Below, in pieces: positions 53,875 to 64,000 of a DNA stretch of 64,000 bases. The notes under the pieces were generated by a model. It saw nothing but the letters and a program-made list of their open reading frames with translations. It searched no databases and was not told the DNA's origin. Position 1 is the stretch's first letter; each line of letters starts with the position of its first letter. Position numbers and translations under genes: made by a program. The stretch is from Pseudomonadota bacterium (lineage in GTDB: Bacteria > Desulfobacterota > Binatia > Binatales > Binataceae): positions 1-64,000 of the forward strand of contig JAJPKP010000007.1 of assembly GCA_021323675.1 (NCBI GenBank). The letters run 5' to 3'.

Positions 53875-54561
53875 ATGTTTCATAAAGAAGCTGACATGAT
53901 GCGACCGGTGGTGCGGTGGATGAAGGCTGCTGGCCTGACAGCGAGGTCCGAATTTGTGACTCCTTGGGGTGTGTGCGATCTCGTCGGTCTTCGCTTCAAT
54001 GCCAATAATCTTGCACGGCGCATCCGGCTGAAGCAGACGCGCGCGGTTAGTTCAATCACCCGAGCAATGATTCTTCTTGAAATTCCGGACGTGGAAACTC
54101 GAAGGTTTGTTACGCTTGAGAAGCTGAGGCGCCATTGGACAGGCTCCTTCCGTGAGGAGACCATTCGAAGGGAGACTGACAGGCTCATCGCCGATGGGTT
54201 CGTGATTCTTTCCCGAAAAAGCCGCCTGCAGAAGATCAATGGCTGGATGCCACTACAAGATCGGTTGGTCGCTGTGGAGTTAAAGCTCTCCAGAATCGAG
54301 GAGGCCATGCGTCAGGCGTTGAACAATGTGGCTTTTGCCGATGAATCATACGTTGCTTTGCCGGACGCTATTGCCAAGCGCGTCGCGTCTCGCCCTTCGC
54401 GTTGGTCAAGGTTCTTTGAGGCCGGGGTGGGATTGCTGGGCGTGACTCCTCACCGGTGTCGGGTGGTGGTTTCACCCAAGAAGGCCGAGCAATGGAAGGA
54501 TAAGCCCGTTCAGTTGTATTGCGTTGAAAAGTTCTGGAGAAGCCGGCTTAAAGGCAACTAA
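53875..54561 (+). CDS. PD-(D/E)XK-like nuclease candidate with inserted winged helix
   Basis: The protein has 228 residues. Elements of a restriction-endonuclease fold can be read: Glu5 in the first helix, Asp35 in GVCDLVGL, and Glu135-x-Lys137 in VAVELKLSR followed by helix IEEAMRQALNNVAFADESYV. About 95 residues between Asp and ExK contain a winged-helix-like stretch (VTLEKLRRHW ... ETDRLIADGFVILSR). The family is not recognised. It lies first in the island and converges with an unknown gene (14-bp overlap). It may be a nuclease of a defence module. Confidence 0.6.
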   Translation: MFHKEADMMRPVVRWMKAAGLTARSEFVTPWGVCDLVGLRFNANNLARRIRLKQTRAVSSITRAMILLEIPDVETRRFVTLEKLRRHWTGSFREETIRRETDRLIADGFVILSRKSRLQKINGWMPLQDRLVAVELKLSRIEEAMRQALNNVAFADESYVALPDAIAKRVASRPSRWSRFFEAGVGLLGVTPHRCRVVVSPKKAEQWKDKPVQLYCVEKFWRSRLKGN

Positions 54562-55717
54562 GCATGAGTGGCTCAGCCACGGCTTCCGGACGGCGAGCTG
54601 TGCCTTCATCGGGTAGATCTGGGAGTGACTTGCCTAGTGCGTATGCTGCCGATAAATCCTGAAACAATGCCATCGACCGGCCAGATTTGGGTGCATTCGC
54701 TATAAGGTCAAGCCACCGCTTGTAAAACGCAGCAACCTGCTCACGGGAAGTATCAGGGGAGATCAAGTTACCGTATTGTTTTTTGATGTCGTTGAACTCT
54801 ATGTACGCTGGATGGCTGGTGCCTAACTTAGTAAGTGCTGTATCCAGCCAGGCTCTGAGTTGAATGCTAACGCTAACCCTCCGCCTTAGCGATGGCAGCA
54901 CAATTCGTACGCTCGGCGGCATTGCGTGACCGCCGGCCAGAAAGTATTGGTACCCAGAGCCAATTCCTATCGCAGGATAGTCGACCAAACCCCTTGACCA
55001 CAACACCAGGTTTAGTCCCCAGTACGGGCCTGCTATTCGGATTCTGGATGGAATTCGTTCATTGAGTTCCTGATGTAAGGCAACAATTCCCGGCAGACGC
55101 CTGTTTCTGAGAGTCGCGGATCCACTGTCGTCAACTAAGCTTCTTTCGACAACCCAAAGACCGTCTGCTTGAGATTCGTGATAGCACTTCTCGGCCTGCT
55201 GTACCTTAGGATTCCTTGCAGTTTTACCATTGACCTGTTGCTGATGCGTAAAAATTAGAGGCAAAATAAGTTTTCCCGAGAACCCCTTATCCCTTTTCCA
55301 CTTTCCCGCGGCGACTGCTAGTGCCCGATTGATTTTGTTGCGGTCAGAATTTGTGACCAATGGTATCTGCGGAACACTAATCCAGGTGGGTTTGTATGAC
55401 GCGCACTTGTCCAAGATAGCGTCAACGAAAGCCTGTACTTCTGAGGCGATCGGCCTTTCCTGGAATGTCGGCTTCGCAACATCTTCGAATTTTGCAAAGC
55501 CTTTCATGAAGGTGAACCAGGGCCGGTCGCGACGCGCGTCGGGATCGTCCATGCCGTCCACACACGCGTCCAACCAGATTTTAAAGGTCGGACGCAAAAG
55601 TGGAACTAGGCTTGCGGCTCGATCTAAAGGGAGCCGCGCAACCTCCGAATCCGCATACAGTCTCTGCGCGATTCTCGCCCCGTCGTCACTCGTTATAAAC
55701 GGAATTTGCTCCGCCAT
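54548..55717 (-). CDS. Unknown protein, partner of the FRG gene
   Basis: The 389 residues begin at ATG 55717, which has GAGGAG at ideal spacing; the frame upstream to 55738 would overlap the FRG gene. No domain is recognised. Conserved-looking blocks are PTWISVPQIPL, GPYWGLNLVLWSRGL and GIGSGYQYFLAGG. It starts 7 bp after the FRG gene, so the two form an operon and probably work together. Confidence 0.7.
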   Translation of the reverse strand: MAEQIPFITSDDGARIAQRLYADSEVARLPLDRAASLVPLLRPTFKIWLDACVDGMDDPDARRDRPWFTFMKGFAKFEDVAKPTFQERPIASEVQAFVDAILDKCASYKPTWISVPQIPLVTNSDRNKINRALAVAAGKWKRDKGFSGKLILPLIFTHQQQVNGKTARNPKVQQAEKCYHESQADGLWVVERSLVDDSGSATLRNRRLPGIVALHQELNERIPSRIRIAGPYWGLNLVLWSRGLVDYPAIGIGSGYQYFLAGGHAMPPSVRIVLPSLRRRVSVSIQLRAWLDTALTKLGTSHPAYIEFNDIKKQYGNLISPDTSREQVAAFYKRWLDLIANAPKSGRSMALFQDLSAAYALGKSLPDLPDEGTARRPEAVAEPLMLSCL

Positions 55718-55724
55718 CCGCTCC

Positions 55725-56540
55725 TCACAAGCCCGCACTTCTCTTTAGGTGAGAGCACACATGTTCCGGCTCCGGAAAGATGAACATCTCACCGATGCCG
55801 ACGCGCTCCAGCTCGTTTAGCAGGCCCCTCTTGTATTCGCGCAAGATGGGCACATACAGCAGCGAACTGGCCTGGGCGCGATCCAATGCAAAGCTTTTTG
55901 ACCCATGAAGCGTGAACACGCCCTGTTGTAGGGCGATCCGTTCGGTGTTCCAAGTTGGATTGATTGCGATGGTGCGCTTTCCAGCTGGTCGCACTTTACC
56001 GTCGAGTTTGAAATAAGGCTTTATGATGTTGGCATCTCGCTCCATGTTAAAGACCCGCGGCGATCGGGCCTCGACGTTTTGGTTCAGCTCGATGGGATTG
56101 AGGATAACAACTAAGCCGTCTGAGTCGGGGTCCTTGCTACAAGCGAAGAAGAGTGCAACAGCTGCATTCTGAGTCCAGTCTAACAATCGCGTGGGCAGTC
56201 CATAGTGTTGTGCGACCTGCATCCAGCCAAGATCATCATCAGGAGCGGGAGGACGACCTAGTTTCATGTCGAGAAAGCGCTTCATATCAGCCAAGAGATG
56301 GAGCGCCGCGTCTCTTTTTTCCTGCGCGGCGTAACGAAGGGCTGAAGGTGCGAGAGAATGCGTGAGCTGCGGATGACCCCGAAACCAGAAGATTTTGTTT
56401 GGCTCTAACAGGGAGTGAAACACACCAAAAAAATCGCTCAGTGTGGAAATCAGTTGGTCTTGAAACATTGGGCAGTCTATCGGACAGGCTCTGTATCGGC
56501 GAATGAGGTCTCGACGGGTTTTCGGTGTTGTCGGAGGCAT
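55725..56540 (-). CDS. FRG-domain protein
   Basis: This 271-residue protein contains the FRG domain: FWFRGH (51-56) with the Phe-Arg-Gly that names it, MQVAQHYGLPTRLLDWTQNAAVALFFAC (107-134, in pieces), and a beta-rich tail. FRG proteins recur in defence islands and toxin-like contexts; a nucleotide or NAD-related activity has been proposed but not proven here. It is upstream of an unknown partner in a two-gene operon. ATG at 56468 is an alternative start. Confidence 0.85.
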   Translation of the reverse strand: MPPTTPKTRRDLIRRYRACPIDCPMFQDQLISTLSDFFGVFHSLLEPNKIFWFRGHPQLTHSLAPSALRYAAQEKRDAALHLLADMKRFLDMKLGRPPAPDDDLGWMQVAQHYGLPTRLLDWTQNAAVALFFACSKDPDSDGLVVILNPIELNQNVEARSPRVFNMERDANIIKPYFKLDGKVRPAGKRTIAINPTWNTERIALQQGVFTLHGSKSFALDRAQASSLLYVPILREYKRGLLNELERVGIGEMFIFPEPEHVCSHLKRSAGL

Positions 56541-56613: not shown

Positions 56614-57066
56614 TCAAGACCGCAGCGGGATCGCATGTTGCCCGACCCAACGCACCCAGGGCAGTTCGTTCCTGACCGTGTTCCAGAGGCGTTCATCCGC
56701 GGTCCAGCACTCGCATTGTCGGGATTCCGCAAGGGCCAAGTAGTGCGCGTCGTATGCGCTCGGCAGGGAAAACCGCTCCATAATTTCCAGAGCGCGAAGA
56801 TTGACCGCAACGTCGTTCTCCAGCGCTGGCCCATTCTCCAACAGGAATGCTAGGCGTTCCTTGGCGATCTCAAGGCTCAACTGGCCCCGTTTTACCCGTT
56901 TCGCGAGGGCATTGGTCGCCTCATAGGCAAACAGCGCCGGCGCGGTTAGGCGCCGACGCTGTTTCTGCCACTTTTCTAGAAGCTCCGATGCTTCGTCACT
57001 GTACGGCTCCCGCTCGATCCACTTAAGCGCGAGGCTCGCATCGACGACCACTTCGTCGGCGCTCAC
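56614..57066 (-). CDS. vapC: PIN-domain toxin, VapC-like
   Basis: This 150-residue PIN ribonuclease has acidic residues in VVDASLALKW, FAYEATNAL, YDAHYLALAE and TADERLW, fitting the four-carboxylate Mg2+ site. It is preceded by a RHH antitoxin gene with ATGA overlap (57063-57066). VapC toxins cleave tRNA or rRNA when the antitoxin is lost. As part of the island it could stabilise it. Confidence 0.88.
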   Translation of the reverse strand: MSADEVVVDASLALKWIEREPYSDEASELLEKWQKQRRRLTAPALFAYEATNALAKRVKRGQLSLEIAKERLAFLLENGPALENDVAVNLRALEIMERFSLPSAYDAHYLALAESRQCECWTADERLWNTVRNELPWVRWVGQHAIPLRS

Positions 57067-57365
57067 AGTTGGTTATCACGCTCCATCCTGGCTTCGCGGA
57101 TCAGGTCTACAGAGTCCTCCGGAAAGGGCGTGGGTTGTTGGGCGCGGAAGGTGGCGAAGCGGCCTAGCGTCTCGGTCGTGATGGTGCCATCGGCCTTTTT
57201 CTTGAGTACCCGGCCCGCCGGCACCGAGCGATCGAGGAGGCGCGTCACATAGGCCGAGACTGAAAGGTCTTGGGCGGCTGCCGCCACCTTGATGCGGCGC
57301 CGTAGCGCGGGAGGTATATCAAGCGTAAGCCGGGGCCGGTTCGTCTTGGTGATAGATCTTGCCAT
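57063..57365 (-). CDS. vapB: Ribbon-helix-helix antitoxin, VapB-like
   Basis: This 100-residue protein has an N-terminal RHH fold (PRLTLDIPPALRRRIKVAAAAQDLSVSAYVTRLLD in pieces) and a C-terminal tail expected to neutralise the toxin. It overlaps vapC by ATGA. A promoter with a short dyad lies upstream, suggesting autoregulation. Confidence 0.82.
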   Translation of the reverse strand: MARSITKTNRPRLTLDIPPALRRRIKVAAAAQDLSVSAYVTRLLDRSVPAGRVLKKKADGTITTETLGRFATFRAQQPTPFPEDSVDLIREARMERDNQL

Positions 57366-57466: not shown

Positions 57467-58882
57467 TTGGAAGCACGCGACCGCCGTCTTCCCGATTGGT
57501 TCATTCGAATCCGAACCGGTCAAGTTCGATTGCCGCGATTTCAGCGCTTCGAGGCGTGGAGCCATGATCGAGTCGCCGCTTTGCTTGAGACGGTGTTAAG
57601 GGGTTTGCCCGCTGGGGCTGCATTGATCCTTGAGGTCGGTGATAAAGAACCGTTTAGAAGCCGCTCCATTGTAGGGGCGCCGCAGCCAACTGAAAGGGTC
57701 ACGGAGCATCTCCTGGATGGCCAGCAAAGGATAACCGCGTTGTGGCGGAGCATGCACGATAACTATGAGGATCGAACCTATTTTGCCTACTTCGAGCCCG
57801 ACGAGGAACACGACGGAGCGGTGATTCCTAAGGTCTATGGACAGCCACGCTGGTGGCGGAACGGAACGCGCTATCCTGTCTGGGCGGACGATCCAGTAAA
57901 GATTGACGCGAAAGGATACGTCCCCGTGAGTCTGCTAAGGCCTAGCGATTTTGACAAGGACATTACTGCTTGGTGCAAAACGGCGCTGGCAGGTAATGCC
58001 GAGGCGGTCCTCGATCTCAAGGACAGGATTAACGACCTTCGGAAGCGAGTCAGTGAGTTCAATCTGCCGTTTCTTTCTCTGCCGATTGGTACGGCTAGAG
58101 ACGTGGCGCTCGACGTGTTCATCAAAATGAACACGAGCGCAGTTCCTCTCAGCGCGTTCGATATCGTCGTGGCGCAGGTCGAAGATGCCACGGGTCGATC
58201 ACTGCACGAATTGGTAGGGTCTCTTAGAGCCAAAGCGCCGCAAGCAGATGCCTATGGCGACGCGTCCGATTTCATGTTGCGAGTGGCCGCGATGCGCGGC
58301 GATCGTCCGCCGACTCAAGCGAGCTTCTTGCGACTTGACTTCGACAGGCTGGTTGCTGATTGGGAGAAGATTGTAGATGGCATCAGCTTTGCCACCGATT
58401 TGCTCGACCAAGAGCGCATTTACGATGCCGAAAGACTGCCGACAGATATCGTAATTCCGGTCCTCTCTGCCCTTAAAGATGATGTTCCCCCGGCATTGGA
58501 CGAGCGCGGTAACGTGCTGACACTTCTCAGGCGTTACATCTGGCGTGCTTTCCTCACGCGTAGATACGAAAGCTCCGCCGGGACGCGCTCTTTGCAGGAC
58601 TTGCGCGGCCTTCGAAGCGCGATCAAGGGGAACTCTGACCCAAAGGGAATACCGATCTTTGATGAAAGCGAGTTTCCGCTGCCGACTATAGACGAGATAA
58701 AGAGAGCCCGCTGGCCTAAAACGCGGGACATACTGGCGCGAGGAATCTCGGCCATTTCCCTTCGCGAAGGTGCGCTCGACTTGGCAGACGGTACGCCCGC
58801 AAATCGAACCGCCTTGCCGCATCGAGACTCCAGGGCTGCTGGCCTCGAGGCTAACAATGATGAAATCTCTGGCCCCATCTAG
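57467..58882 (+). CDS. DUF262 protein with C-terminal HNH part missing
   Basis: This 471-residue protein starts at TTG (57467) after AGAGGAG. The ParB-like DUF262 domain shows LPRFQRFEAW (22-31) and DGQQRITAL (84-92), plus FIKMNTSAVPLSAFDI later. In related proteins the C-terminus carries a DUF1524-like HNH after a stretch like GTPxxRxxLPxR. Here that stretch (ADGTPANRTALPHR) is followed by only about 20 unrelated residues and a stop. The nuclease part is therefore truncated or frameshifted. Confidence 0.75.
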   Translation: MEARDRRLPDWFIRIRTGQVRLPRFQRFEAWSHDRVAALLETVLRGLPAGAALILEVGDKEPFRSRSIVGAPQPTERVTEHLLDGQQRITALWRSMHDNYEDRTYFAYFEPDEEHDGAVIPKVYGQPRWWRNGTRYPVWADDPVKIDAKGYVPVSLLRPSDFDKDITAWCKTALAGNAEAVLDLKDRINDLRKRVSEFNLPFLSLPIGTARDVALDVFIKMNTSAVPLSAFDIVVAQVEDATGRSLHELVGSLRAKAPQADAYGDASDFMLRVAAMRGDRPPTQASFLRLDFDRLVADWEKIVDGISFATDLLDQERIYDAERLPTDIVIPVLSALKDDVPPALDERGNVLTLLRRYIWRAFLTRRYESSAGTRSLQDLRGLRSAIKGNSDPKGIPIFDESEFPLPTIDEIKRARWPKTRDILARGISAISLREGALDLADGTPANRTALPHRDSRAAGLEANNDEISGPI

Positions 58883-59495: not shown

Positions 59496-59577
59496 GACTG
59501 CCAGAACGTGACGCCTGGGCACTAGCCCGATGCGCTGCGCCTCCTGCCATTAGAGAGCGGACGTGGATGCGAAGGGA

Positions 59578-60057
59578 ATGAACGGAGGATCGAGCAAGAC
59601 ACCTTCCTTTAGAGGTTTATTGGCGGCATCGCGGTCAAGTTCGTACGCGAAGAAGATGACCCGCAATTCCAATACCACCCACGAGCATCTGTTGCGGATT
59701 ACGCTTTGGAAGCGCGGGTTGCGCTATCGAAAGAACGTACCGACGCTTCCTGGAAAGCCCGATATCGTTTTCCACAGAGAGCGCGTGGCGGTATTTTGCG
59801 ATGGCGATTTCTGGCACGGACGGCATTGGCGGCGCCTATCGGGCAAGCTCCGCGCAGGAACCAACCCTTCCTACTGGACTGGCAAGATAAGCGCGAACCG
59901 CAGCCGTGACCGCCGCGTCACCCGACTGCTGAAAACCGAAGGGTGGACCGTCATTCGGATTTGGGAGACGGATATCCGCCGAGATCCAGAGCGAGTCGCA
60001 TGCATCGTGGAACGCCTCGTTCAAAGGAGCCGACGCGGCGACGATGCGATTCATTGA
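59578..60057 (+). CDS. vsr: Vsr-like very-short-patch repair endonuclease
   Basis: This 159-residue protein has the Vsr core RYRKNVPTLPGKPDIVF with catalytic Asp62, then AVFCDGDFWHGRHW (71-84), NRSRDRRVTRLL and GWTVIRIWETDI. The usual zinc Cys residues are not seen, and HGxFWH reads DGDFWH, so this is a variant branch. ATG at 59578 follows GAAGGGA; GTG at 59563 is less likely. It overlaps the methylase gene by 14 bp. It may repair T:G mismatches from cytosine methylation or serve as the restriction nuclease. Confidence 0.8.
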   Translation: MNGGSSKTPSFRGLLAASRSSSYAKKMTRNSNTTHEHLLRITLWKRGLRYRKNVPTLPGKPDIVFHRERVAVFCDGDFWHGRHWRRLSGKLRAGTNPSYWTGKISANRSRDRRVTRLLKTEGWTVIRIWETDIRRDPERVACIVERLVQRSRRGDDAIH

Positions 60058-61387
60058 TCTGTTTGCGGGACTTGGCGGGTTTCATGTCGGGCTCGCCAGT
60101 CTCGGACACGAGTGCGTTTTCGCGAGCGAACTGGATACTCATCTTCAAGAACTTTACGAGAAAAATTTCGGCCTGCGCCCCCACGGCGACATCCGCACCA
60201 TATCGGCCGATCTAGTGCCTTCCCATGACGTTCTGTGCGCCGGCTCACCCTGTCAGCCGTTCTCGAAGGCGGGAGGCCAGCAGGGCTTCGATTGCCCGAG
60301 ATGGGGAGATCTTTTCGGGCATGTGCTGCGCCTCCTCAAACACCACAAGCCGAAATTCCTCATCCTTGAGAATGTTCCCAATCTTGAGCGACACGATAAC
60401 GGCGACACGTGGTCTCAACTGCAGCGTGAACTGTGCGCCGCCGGCTACGAAATCAGCACCAAACATCTCTCGCCTCATCAGTACGGCGTTCCGCAGATCA
60501 GGGAGCGCGTGTTTATTGTCGGAAGCCGGTCAGGCCTGACGCATTTCGCATGGCCACAACAAGCGGACGAGGCCGATCTCTCTATAAGCTCCGTCCTCGA
60601 CAAAAATCCCGAAGACGCGAAACCCATTTCGTCGCACGCAAAGAAGTGCCTTCAGGTATGGCAGGCCTTCATCAAGGCATTTCCGAAAAAAGAGGAGTTG
60701 CCCTCGTTTCCCATCTGGTCAATGGAATTCGGGGCCACCTACCCGTTTGAAAAGGAGACGCCGCACGCGCTCGGGAGCCGAAGACTAAGGAAATATCGCG
60801 GTAGTCACGGAATCCCGCTTAGTTGGTATCCGGCGGCACTGCGAATGGACGGTCTGCCCTCGTATGCCTGCACCAAAGAGGACTCATTTCCACATTGGAA
60901 GGTGCTGTTCATCCAGCAGAATCGCGAGTTCTATAAGCGCCACAAGAAGTGGATAAAACCCTGGCTCCCGCGCATTCTCGATTTCCCCCCGAGCTTTCAA
61001 AAACTGGAATGGAACTGCAAGGGAGAAAAGCGCAACATCTGGGACTACGTGATCCAGTTCCGCGCATCCGGTGTCCGCATCAAGCGCCCGACGACCGCTC
61101 CGTCGCTGATCGCCATGACCACCACTCAGGTGCCAATCATCGGATGGGAGCGCCGGTACATGACTCCTCGCGAGTGCGCGCGCCTTCAAAGCCTTCATGA
61201 ACTGAAACATCTGCCGCACGCGCCCACCAGAGCCTTCAAGGCGCTTGGCAACGCCGTCAACAGTGAGTTGGTCCGTCTCATCGGCGCAAGCCTCCTGGCC
61301 CCACGCCCTGAGCACCGCGCCACTCTCACAGCGGGAGACTTTAATCGGCTTGGCCAGGCTGAGCCTGCAAACCATGCCGCAATCTGA
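60044..61387 (+). CDS. dcm: C5-cytosine DNA methyltransferase
   Basis: The 447 residues carry all main C5-methylase motifs in order: I DLFAGLGGFHVGL (5-17), IV GSPCQPFSKAG with catalytic Cys70, VI ENVPNL (109-114), VIII QYGVPQIRERVFIVG, and a late X-type LGNAVNSELV. The target-recognition region between VIII and X is about 200 residues. It overlaps vsr by 14 bp upstream and the GHKL ATPase gene by 14 bp downstream. It modifies a palindromic or short site of unknown sequence. Confidence 0.92.
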   Translation: MRFIDLFAGLGGFHVGLASLGHECVFASELDTHLQELYEKNFGLRPHGDIRTISADLVPSHDVLCAGSPCQPFSKAGGQQGFDCPRWGDLFGHVLRLLKHHKPKFLILENVPNLERHDNGDTWSQLQRELCAAGYEISTKHLSPHQYGVPQIRERVFIVGSRSGLTHFAWPQQADEADLSISSVLDKNPEDAKPISSHAKKCLQVWQAFIKAFPKKEELPSFPIWSMEFGATYPFEKETPHALGSRRLRKYRGSHGIPLSWYPAALRMDGLPSYACTKEDSFPHWKVLFIQQNREFYKRHKKWIKPWLPRILDFPPSFQKLEWNCKGEKRNIWDYVIQFRASGVRIKRPTTAPSLIAMTTTQVPIIGWERRYMTPRECARLQSLHELKHLPHAPTRAFKALGNAVNSELVRLIGASLLAPRPEHRATLTAGDFNRLGQAEPANHAAI

Positions 61388-62930
61388 GCAAAGGGCGACC
61401 CTTCCTCCCCGCGTCAGCATTCGTCCCGGCGTCGGGATCTTGTCCGTTCTCCGGCACCTGAATTACAAGGCGTGGTTCGCAATGGCGGAATTCGTCGATA
61501 ATTCTCTCCAGAGTTATCTGCAAAATCGCGAAAAGCTTCAGGGGCTTCACGGAAATGATCTCCGGCTGAAAGTCGAAGTCGAGATCGAGCGTTCCGACGA
61601 GGTCCGTATCAAGATAAGGGACAACGCCGCCGGCATTGCCACTGCCGACTATGCGCGCGCCTTCCGCCCGGCGGAGTTGCCCACGGACCGCAGCGGCTTC
61701 GCCGAGTTCGGCATGGGCATGAAAAGTGCCGCGTGCTGGTTCGCGCCCCGCTGGAAGGTCAGGACATCAGCCCTAGGCGAGCCCATCGAACGAACAATCT
61801 CCCTTGATATCGAAACTATCGTGCGCGATTCCATCGAAGAGCTCGACGTTGTGGAACACCCCGCTGGCGTCAACGACCACTTCACGGAGATCACGCTGAT
61901 CGATCCGTATGACAAGCTTCAGACGAAGACCGCCAGCAAGATCAAGGATCATCTCGCGAGCATCTATAGGATATTTCTGCGCGAGCAAGCGATGGAGTTG
62001 TGGTTCAACGGCGATCGATTGACTTACGAAATTCCGAAGATATTGGTCGCGCCATTCAAGAAGACGCCGAACGAGGAACCCCGGCGCTGGTATCGCGAGT
62101 TCAGTTTCGACTTCGGGCTTGGGCTGCGAGCATCCGGGTTCGCGGCGATCCGGGAAGTTGCCAGCACCTCCACAGCCGGATTTGCATTGTTCAGGCGCAA
62201 GCGGCTGATCGAGGGCAGCCTCGATGAGCCCTACCGGCCGGAATATGTTTTCGGCACGGGCAACTCCTACCGCAAGCAGCGCCTCATCGGCGAGATCCAT
62301 CTCGAAGGTTTCGAGGTCAGTCACACCAAGGACGGATTCAAGTGGGAAGATCATGAACAGCCGTTCCTTGAGCTTTTGTACGACGAGCTCGAAAAGCATG
62401 GCCTTCCTTTGCTTTCGCAGGCGGAATTGTACCGGGCGCGCGAGGCGCAGCGCGACCTTCGGGCCGAGGCCGAGAAAGCCAGTGCCCGCATTGCAGAGAC
62501 GGTTGAAAAGGAAGTCCCGCGTGTTCTCGAAGAGCAAGCCGCCGCGCGCCCGTTTCTTGAGCCTCTGCCGGCAGCGGCTCCGCCCGATCGATCGGCCAGT
62601 TCGCGGCTCATCGAAGTCGACCACCGCGGAGCGAAATGGCGCATCACGATCGAATTGGCAATGGACCCGGCCATCGAGGATTGGATTTCCATCGCCGACA
62701 AGCCGGCGGAACGCGGACAGCCTCGGGCCATCACCGTCCGTATGTCGCTCGCCCACCCATTCATGCAACAATTCTGTCGGGCGGATTCCGAGGAGATCGA
62801 GGCGCTGGCGCGCGTTGCCGCCGCGATAGGGCTTGCCGAGATAACGGCTCGCGACGCGGGCGTTCCGCAATACGGCACCATTCGCCGCAATATCAATCAG
62901 CTCTTGCGGGAGGCCCTCTCGAAACCATGA
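61374..62930 (+). CDS. MORC-like GHKL ATPase
   Basis: The protein has 518 residues. N-terminal Bergerat-fold motifs: N-box AEFVDNSLQSY (Glu39, Asp42-Asn43), G1 DNAAGI (83-88) and G2 FGMGMKSAA (112-120, with Lys117). An S5-like region may follow (about 200-330), then a charged helical part (around 370-440) and a small C-terminal domain. The FGMGxKSAA form resembles MORC/MutL-type ATPases rather than histidine kinases. The longer frame from 61245 is antisense-like to the methylase tail and rejected. A Z1 gene follows 12 bp later. Confidence 0.87.
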   Translation: MPQSEQRATLPPRVSIRPGVGILSVLRHLNYKAWFAMAEFVDNSLQSYLQNREKLQGLHGNDLRLKVEVEIERSDEVRIKIRDNAAGIATADYARAFRPAELPTDRSGFAEFGMGMKSAACWFAPRWKVRTSALGEPIERTISLDIETIVRDSIEELDVVEHPAGVNDHFTEITLIDPYDKLQTKTASKIKDHLASIYRIFLREQAMELWFNGDRLTYEIPKILVAPFKKTPNEEPRRWYREFSFDFGLGLRASGFAAIREVASTSTAGFALFRRKRLIEGSLDEPYRPEYVFGTGNSYRKQRLIGEIHLEGFEVSHTKDGFKWEDHEQPFLELLYDELEKHGLPLLSQAELYRAREAQRDLRAEAEKASARIAETVEKEVPRVLEEQAAARPFLEPLPAAAPPDRSASSRLIEVDHRGAKWRITIELAMDPAIEDWISIADKPAERGQPRAITVRMSLAHPFMQQFCRADSEEIEALARVAAAIGLAEITARDAGVPQYGTIRRNINQLLREALSKP

Positions 62931-62942
62931 CGGAGCGATTTT

Positions 62943-64000
62943 GTGCCTAACGCCGACGGCGAATTGATAACTCCCCAGGAGGAGCTTCCGCCAGGGAGCC
63001 GGTGGCTTCCCGTTCGGGGCGCTGAAGTCCGAGACCTTCTTGCTCACCTCCAGCTTGATGACCAGAGCACCGAGCGCCTGGTCTCCGAAGCGACCACCAT
63101 CCTCAGCAAGTGCCTGCCGCCTCATGGCGCCGCAGATTCGACGACCGGTCTGGTTCTGGGCTACGTTCAAAGCGGCAAAACCATGTCGTTTACGACGGTC
63201 GCCGCACTCGCCCGCGATAACGCGTTCCCGATGGTCATCGTCGTCACGGGAGTCAGCAACCCGCTGCTTGACCAGTCGACACGACGGCTTGAACAGGACC
63301 TTCGCCTTCAGGAAAACCGCAAATGGCGCCTGCTCCGCAATCCCAAGCCCATTGATCGTCATGCAATCAGCGACGTGCTCGCCGACTGGCGGGACGGGAG
63401 GCTGCCGGAACATCGCCGCAAGACTGTTCTGATCACAGTCCTTAAGCAAACAACCAACCTTCGAAACCTCATCCGCGTGCTCGAACAACTCGACCTTTCG
63501 ACATTACCCGTCCTTGTCATCGACGATGAAGCGGACCAGGCCGGACTGAATACTCGCGTCGGCCAGGCGACGCCGAGCACTACCTACCAGCGTCTCGTGG
63601 CCCTGCGGCAAAACCTGCCGCATCACGCCTACCTCCAGTATACGGCCACACCGCAAGCGCCGTTGCTTATCAACATCATCGATGTCCTGTCTCCTGAATT
63701 CGTCGAGCTCCTGACCCCCGGCCCCGACTATGTCGGAGGACAGACTTTCTTTGACGAACGACCGAACCTTGTGCGCGTCATACCGGCGAACGAGATCCCA
63801 GGCCGCAACGCGGCGCCTCAGTGCGTGCCGCCCTCGCTGATCGAAGCTTTACGCCTGTTTTTTCTAGGAGTGGCGGCCGGGTTTACGCTAGCCGAGGATC
63901 AACTCCCCCGCCGCAACCGCTCGATGCTTGTTCATCCATCGCGAGAGACTGCCGGCCACAGCCAGTACTTTCACTGGATCACGCAGATCAGGCAGCAATG
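62943..64000 (+). CDS. Z1-domain ATPase/helicase-like protein, cut by the window end
   Basis: GTG at 62943 opens a frame that stays open for 352 codons to the window end. P-loop GYVQSGKTMS (about 63159-63188) and Walker B VLVIDDEADQA (about 63510-63540) with a DDEAD box identify the Z1-type superfamily-2 ATPase, as does LQYTATPQAPLLI. It lies 12 bp after the GHKL gene. In MORC-type restriction systems Z1 ATPase and GHKL ATPase act with a cytosine methylase. The C-terminus and any later nuclease are beyond the window. Confidence 0.88.
   Translation, partial: MPNADGELITPQEELPPGSRWLPVRGAEVRDLLAHLQLDDQSTERLVSEATTILSKCLPPHGAADSTTGLVLGYVQSGKTMSFTTVAALARDNAFPMVIVVTGVSNPLLDQSTRRLEQDLRLQENRKWRLLRNPKPIDRHAISDVLADWRDGRLPEHRRKTVLITVLKQTTNLRNLIRVLEQLDLSTLPVLVIDDEADQAGLNTRVGQATPSTTYQRLVALRQNLPHHAYLQYTATPQAPLLINIIDVLSPEFVELLTPGPDYVGGQTFFDERPNLVRVIPANEIPGRNAAPQCVPPSLIEALRLFFLGVAAGFTLAEDQLPRRNRSMLVHPSRETAGHSQYFHWITQIRQQ

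Follow-up and report, generated by a model that had tools for sequence, protein, structure and literature searches.

Organization of the operon

The window analysed here, the whole stretch of DNA from position 1 to 64000 of an 82,422-base host contig, ends inside a compact group of five genes. Coordinates below are those of the window and, past its end, those of the contig.

59578–60057, plus strand: Vsr-family endonuclease gene (159 aa; PF03852 and TIGR00632 matches)
60044–61387, plus strand: C5-cytosine DNA methyltransferase gene (447 aa; PF00145 and TIGR00675)
61374–62930, plus strand: MORC-family GHKL-S5 ATPase gene (518 aa; assigned from motifs and predicted fold; HATPase_c_3, 1.1e-12)
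62943–65159, plus strand: Z1 (DEAD-Z1) motor gene (738 aa, complete; PF10593), of which the window holds the 5' part, 62943–64000
65167–66165 of the contig, past the window end: DUF4420 PD-(D/E)XK nuclease gene (332 aa; PF14390, 1.4e-32)

The Vsr and methylase genes overlap by 14 bp (60044–60057), as do the methylase and MORC genes (61374–61387). A 12-bp gap separates MORC from Z1, and the stop of Z1 and the start of the DUF4420 gene lie 7 bases apart. All five genes are free of frameshifts and internal stops, and their catalytic motifs are intact. A first-pass annotation of the window had proposed a MORC-type restriction-modification operon composed of Vsr-like, C5 methylase, MORC and Z1 genes. 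Each of these four identifications is borne out by domain matches far above chance, and the tight coupling that it described (two 14-bp overlaps and one 12-bp gap) is correct, with the same two overlaps present in the nearest relative. Such an operon is supported, with all genes intact and coupled and restriction as its predicted activity. The same annotation noted the Vsr-like protein as the only nuclease visible, a view that fails with the fifth gene. Vsr appeared to stand alone because the window ends inside Z1. When the sequence is extended along the contig, as had been recommended, Z1 proves to be complete rather than truncated and the DUF4420 gene follows directly, which rules out Vsr as the sole nuclease. 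Models from PADLOC match the Vsr, methylase and Z1 proteins of the operon, and no PADLOC model fits its MORC or DUF4420 protein.

MORC, Z1 and methylase proteins

The MORC protein contains the GHKL motifs EFVDN, DNAAGI and GMGMKSA. The segment GFALFRRKRLI at residue 269 is a full fit to the MORC signature GhXhhpXXRhl (PMC2292703). Its AlphaFold model (pLDDT 89.0) is most similar in fold to SMCHD1 (Z 24.6), MORC3 (23.8), MORC2 (23.2) and MORC4 (22.5), with Hsp90/TRAP1 ranking below the MORC structures (Z ∼21). The C-terminal region (residues ∼350–506) is barely covered by these matches. A longer alternative open reading frame for this gene would begin at a TTG codon at 61245.

The full-length Z1 gene matches PF10593 at 2.6e-34, and its product has a Walker A motif (GYVQSGKT), a DEAD motif and a YTATP motif. 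The segment DTIEQRARFFG at residue 457 corresponds to the DThhQXuRhFG signature with one mismatch, a glutamate at the second h position. The methylase matches PF00145 (DNA_methylase, 1.9e-64) and TIGR00675 (5.8e-63), contains the PCQ, ENV, RERVF and GNAV motifs, and has the HhaI methylase as its nearest relative in the PDB. Searched by sequence, the PDB offered no usable relative of the MORC, DUF4420 or Z1 protein.

The predicted DUF4420 nuclease

DUF4420 (PF14390) is described as a putative PD-(D/E)XK family. Across 34 aligned DUF4420 proteins encoded in related operons, residues E144, D170 and K181 never vary, and the copy studied here retains them within AEL, VDF and EVK, so that its E-D-ExK motif is intact. 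The best structural match for the C-terminal half of the AlphaFold model (pLDDT 94.3) is the Holliday junction resolvase Hjc (Z 7.3 over 108 residues, rmsd 3.2). Further matches of this half are DpnI (Z 6.1), SPARDA nuclease chains and a second Hjc-type resolvase (Z 4.6–5.6), and EcoRV (Z 4.8). The top eight matches are all nucleases, at modest similarity (every Z<8). The PD-(D/E)XK nucleases surfaced only with a second aligner, a Foldseek search of the same model having returned no significant match. Fold matches to the N-terminal half (residues ∼1–130) are weak and unrelated, with no DNA-recognition domain identified among them; this half could be the recognition part.

The DUF4420 protein is likely the restriction nuclease of the operon, as predicted from its motif and fold. 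This role may not be universal among such operons, since about one in ten of the related loci has no DUF4420 gene beside Z1.

Conservation and acquisition

A MORC profile scan of 84,980 species' genomes detected 307 relatives, and the best 80 were analysed. MORC is present in these by construction, and the counts given here describe close relatives only. The loci come from Acidobacteriota, Chloroflexota, Planctomycetota, Proteobacteria, Bacteroidota and other phyla. The gene order methylase, MORC, Z1, DUF4420 is found in nearly all of these best 80 of 307 loci, and DUF4420 is present in 69 of the 77 among them that have room 3' of Z1 (1.2 kb or more; the 77 include the window's own locus and two plasmid loci). 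On a Rathayibacter plasmid, these four genes are tightly packed. The loci with wide flanks contain the methylase (62 of 63) and Z1 (62 of 63) almost invariably, and 17 of the 63 have a Vsr gene no more than 1.5 kb away from the operon. Vsr is an optional part of MORC-Z1 operons. Seven loci (L011, L029, L036, L039, L042, L063 and L076) have methylase, MORC and Z1 genes, and DUF4420 was found in them neither by profile nor by tblastn. Two of these have a Vsr gene, located directly 3' of Z1 in L036 and at the first position of the operon in L011.

The nearest relative of the operon is L008, from Acidobacteriaceae bog_382. Its DNA is collinear with 59576–66094 at 72% identity, a range that comprises exactly the five genes; both 14-bp overlaps are kept, and the flanks are unrelated. 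The confinement of homology to the five genes indicates that the unit moves as a cassette. The encoded proteins are 65–84% identical between the two loci while synonymous sites are near saturation, and non-synonymous change lies far below synonymous change in each gene, indicating that all five are under purifying selection. Among the other close loci, L009 is homologous from the methylase onward on a contig that starts only 0.3 kb upstream, too short to decide on the presence of Vsr, and L010 has no Vsr despite 8.6 kb of upstream sequence.

Among 57 relatives searched, no MORC gene was detected, apart from a distant homologue, 33% identical, in a different family of the class. Of 297 genomes from the phylum, 5 contain DUF4420, and G+C drops from ∼62% to 53–58% across 54–62 kb. 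The absence of MORC from close relatives, the rarity of DUF4420 in the phylum and the G+C dip suggest that the operon was probably acquired horizontally. The MORC gene is also present in nine viral contigs, eight of which carry at least MORC, Z1 and DUF4420; among phage records, none with the MORC gene was found. In four viral contigs (L092, L093, L094 and L095) the predicted provirus terminates exactly at the stop codon of DUF4420, which would suit an operon carried as cargo at a prophage edge, or may be an artefact of provirus-end calling.

The Vsr-family protein

The Vsr protein scores well above the cut-offs of both family models (PF03852: 1.9e-20, 72.9 bits, cut-off 27; TIGR00632: 116 bits, cut-off 98). 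An alternative GTG start is located at 59563, and the ATG at 59578 is favoured because the DNA match to L008 starts at 59576. E. coli Vsr has a catalytic core of E25, D51 and H69 and a structural zinc bound by C66, H71, C73 and C117. Compared with the E. coli sequence, the operon's protein keeps equivalents of all three catalytic residues. The four zinc-ligand positions are occupied by D, R, W and T, respectively, and an Asp is found at the position of E. coli His64. The C66D and C73W changes are common to 10 of 27 surveyed Vsr proteins. With its zinc ligands replaced, the protein is, as judged from its sequence, of a zinc-less subtype of the Vsr family, with the motif FCDGDFWHGRHW, and not a canonical Vsr.

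Zinc-site and zinc-less Vsr proteins are found at the same operon positions in related loci. In L054, where the methylase gene is on the other strand, Vsr is still located beside it. A 5-methylcytosine methylase and Vsr form a classical repair pairing. Most likely the protein accompanies the methylase and initiates repair of the T:G mismatches arising from 5-methylcytosine deamination, and is not a restriction nuclease, a reading based on family and co-occurrence. Repair is the best reading of Vsr for three reasons: related operons can lack the gene, its zinc-site and zinc-less forms both turn up in such operons, and in L054 it is still next to a methylase on the other strand.

Comparison with known systems

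The first-pass annotation noted that restriction-modification systems combining MORC homologs with Z1 helicases are known, and this holds: Iyer, Abhiman and Aravind described in 2008 a "third type" of prokaryotic MORC operon with a DThhQXuRhFG (Z1) helicase (PMC2292703). The shared components are a MORC ATPase, a Z1-type SFII helicase, an E-D-ExK nuclease of the RE fold, a cytosine methylase and Vsr. Nothing essential differs, except that Vsr here has no zinc ligands. By its sequence features the operon fits this third type, with the Z1 signature one position off, and it is an ordinary member of a group already described, with one modest variation, a Vsr that lacks the zinc site. The remark that the mechanism is little studied also stands: a literature search of incomplete coverage turned up no experiments on such operons and no paper testing any MORC-Z1-DUF4420 system.

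A defence system composed of Z1, a PD-(D/E)XK DUF protein and a cytosine methylase was predicted by Miller et al. in 2022 (PMC9523054). The combination of Z1, PD-(D/E)XK DUF protein and C5 methylase agrees with the present operon, and type I of the system is associated with DNA repair endonucleases. In contrast, MORC is placed there among the associates of type II, where AIPR is also present, whereas MORC is a core component here and AIPR was not found in the operon. The "DUF4220" printed there is probably DUF4420.

The ATP-dependent restriction-modification systems CglI and NgoAVII also rely on a separate DEAD-Z1 ATPase subunit to drive cleavage (PMC4267653, PMC5737866). In CglI, the DEAD-Z1 protein is an ATP-dependent motor subunit thought to translocate on DNA (PMC4267653, PMC5737866). 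However, these are three-gene systems without MORC or DUF4420, and their nuclease is a PLD-B3 protein. No PLD match was found among the operon genes, and membership in this group is ruled out by a nuclease that is DUF4420 and not a PLD-B3 R protein.

The MZA anti-phage system (MzaABCDE) likewise combines a MutL/MORC-like ATPase with a Z1 protein (PMC9523054). It differs in having AIPR, and the operon's Z1 is only distantly related, with a score of 79.3 bits against the NCBIfam MzaC model (cut-off 1500). The low MzaC score and the lack of AIPR among the operon genes or the scanned neighbours rule out MZA membership. The best PADLOC models for the methylase include DruM2 and DrmMII; Druantia and DISARM are ruled out, as no other gene of either system was matched.

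Proposed function

The locus is, with good probability, a complete, horizontally acquired five-gene MORC-Z1 restriction-modification operon in which methylation marks self, a MORC clamp, the Z1 motor and DUF4420 cut unmethylated DNA, and Vsr most likely serves repair. As judged from the sequence, it is probably functional as well as complete. From the observed gene content and order, intact motifs, predicted folds and conservation as a unit, we infer restriction, the assignment of roles, the dependence on methylation and the clamp-and-motor mechanism, by analogy with MutL and MORC clamps and with the DEAD-Z1 motor of CglI. In the proposed scheme, the C5 methylase would mark a host site. The MORC ATPase would close as an ATP-gated clamp on unmethylated incoming DNA, and ATP-driven movement on the DNA or its remodelling would fall to the Z1 protein. 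The DUF4420 PD-(D/E)XK protein would then cut the unmethylated DNA, and the Vsr-family protein would start T:G mismatch repair after deamination of 5-methylcytosine. A related proposal, in which MORC loops DNA between recognition and cleavage sites, was made by Iyer et al. in 2008 (PMC2292703).

A different division of labour, in which the Vsr-like protein itself restricts as a nickase together with MORC and Z1, alongside or instead of DUF4420, seems unlikely. Such a partnership would resemble mismatch repair, where Vsr and MutL act together. The overlap of the Vsr and methylase genes, the loss of the zinc site with an Asp in place of E. coli His64, which may have changed the activity, and the existence of DUF4420-less loci with either Vsr, methylase, MORC and Z1 (L011) or Vsr right after Z1 (L036) all agree with such a role. 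However, most related operons with the other four genes have no Vsr, Vsr proteins with and without the zinc site occupy the same operon positions, and the pairing of Vsr with a 5-methylcytosine methylase is classical in repair. A narrower form of this idea, which we consider quite doubtful, is that zinc-less Vsr proteins next to MORC-Z1 have been recruited from repair to restriction, nicking incoming DNA with the MORC clamp, and are the sole nuclease in some DUF4420-less loci, such as L011.

It is also rather improbable that the operon provides an abortive or signalling defence instead of classical restriction-modification, with MORC and Z1 sensing infection, DUF4420 attacking DNA broadly and methylation shielding the host. 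MORC/MutL-like and Z1 proteins do occur together with AIPR in MZA, the 2022 prediction (PMC9523054) ties Z1-DUF-methylase operons to MZA, and other candidate defence genes (Fic, FRG and DUF262) are located nearby. This reading is disfavoured by the lack of AIPR in the operon or its scanned neighbours, by the low score of Z1 against MzaC (79 bits, cut-off 1500), and by the C5 methylase found in 62 of 63 wide-flank loci. A decaying or inactive remnant is highly improbable: an island of lower G+C that is absent from close relatives could be read in this way, but the five genes have no frameshift or internal stop, their catalytic motifs are intact, and comparison with L008 indicates strong purifying selection.

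In eukaryotes, genes and transposons are silenced by MORC proteins. Their bacterial relatives in restriction operons, a kind of operon that genome analysis predicted in 2008, have apparently never been tested at the bench, and the present operon adds one member to a described group that seems experimentally unexplored. It offers a compact, complete and mobile example in which the contributions of MORC, Z1, DUF4420 and Vsr could be told apart within a single laboratory strain, because close four-gene relatives without Vsr exist. The idea put forward in 2008, that MORC arose as a component that loops DNA in restriction systems, could be tested in this way (PMC2292703).

Genomic neighborhood

The operon is located in what looks like a defence island, given its DUF262, FRG, PIN-type toxin-antitoxin and Fic neighbours, several of them PADLOC defence candidates. 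Upstream, on the same strand as the operon, a gene at 57467–58882 encodes a DUF262/GmrSD N-terminal domain, with no Pfam match to the second (nuclease) domain. A PIN-type toxin-antitoxin pair is suggested by the translations of two overlapping small genes on the minus strand (56614–57365). An FRG-domain gene (55725–56540, minus strand; PADLOC PDC-S15, 2.6e-48) overlaps by 14 bp a gene of 396 aa (54548–55738, minus strand) that has no Pfam or PADLOC match; the two may form a defence unit. Downstream of the operon, the next clear gene is on the minus strand and encodes a Fic-domain protein (contig 67747–69294, L002:8747–10294) that matches the PADLOC candidate family PDC-S24 very strongly (1.2e-196). 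Farther along, prokaryotic viperin models match the product of a radical SAM gene (L002:17613–18560) moderately well (2.7e-15); it may be an ordinary radical SAM enzyme.
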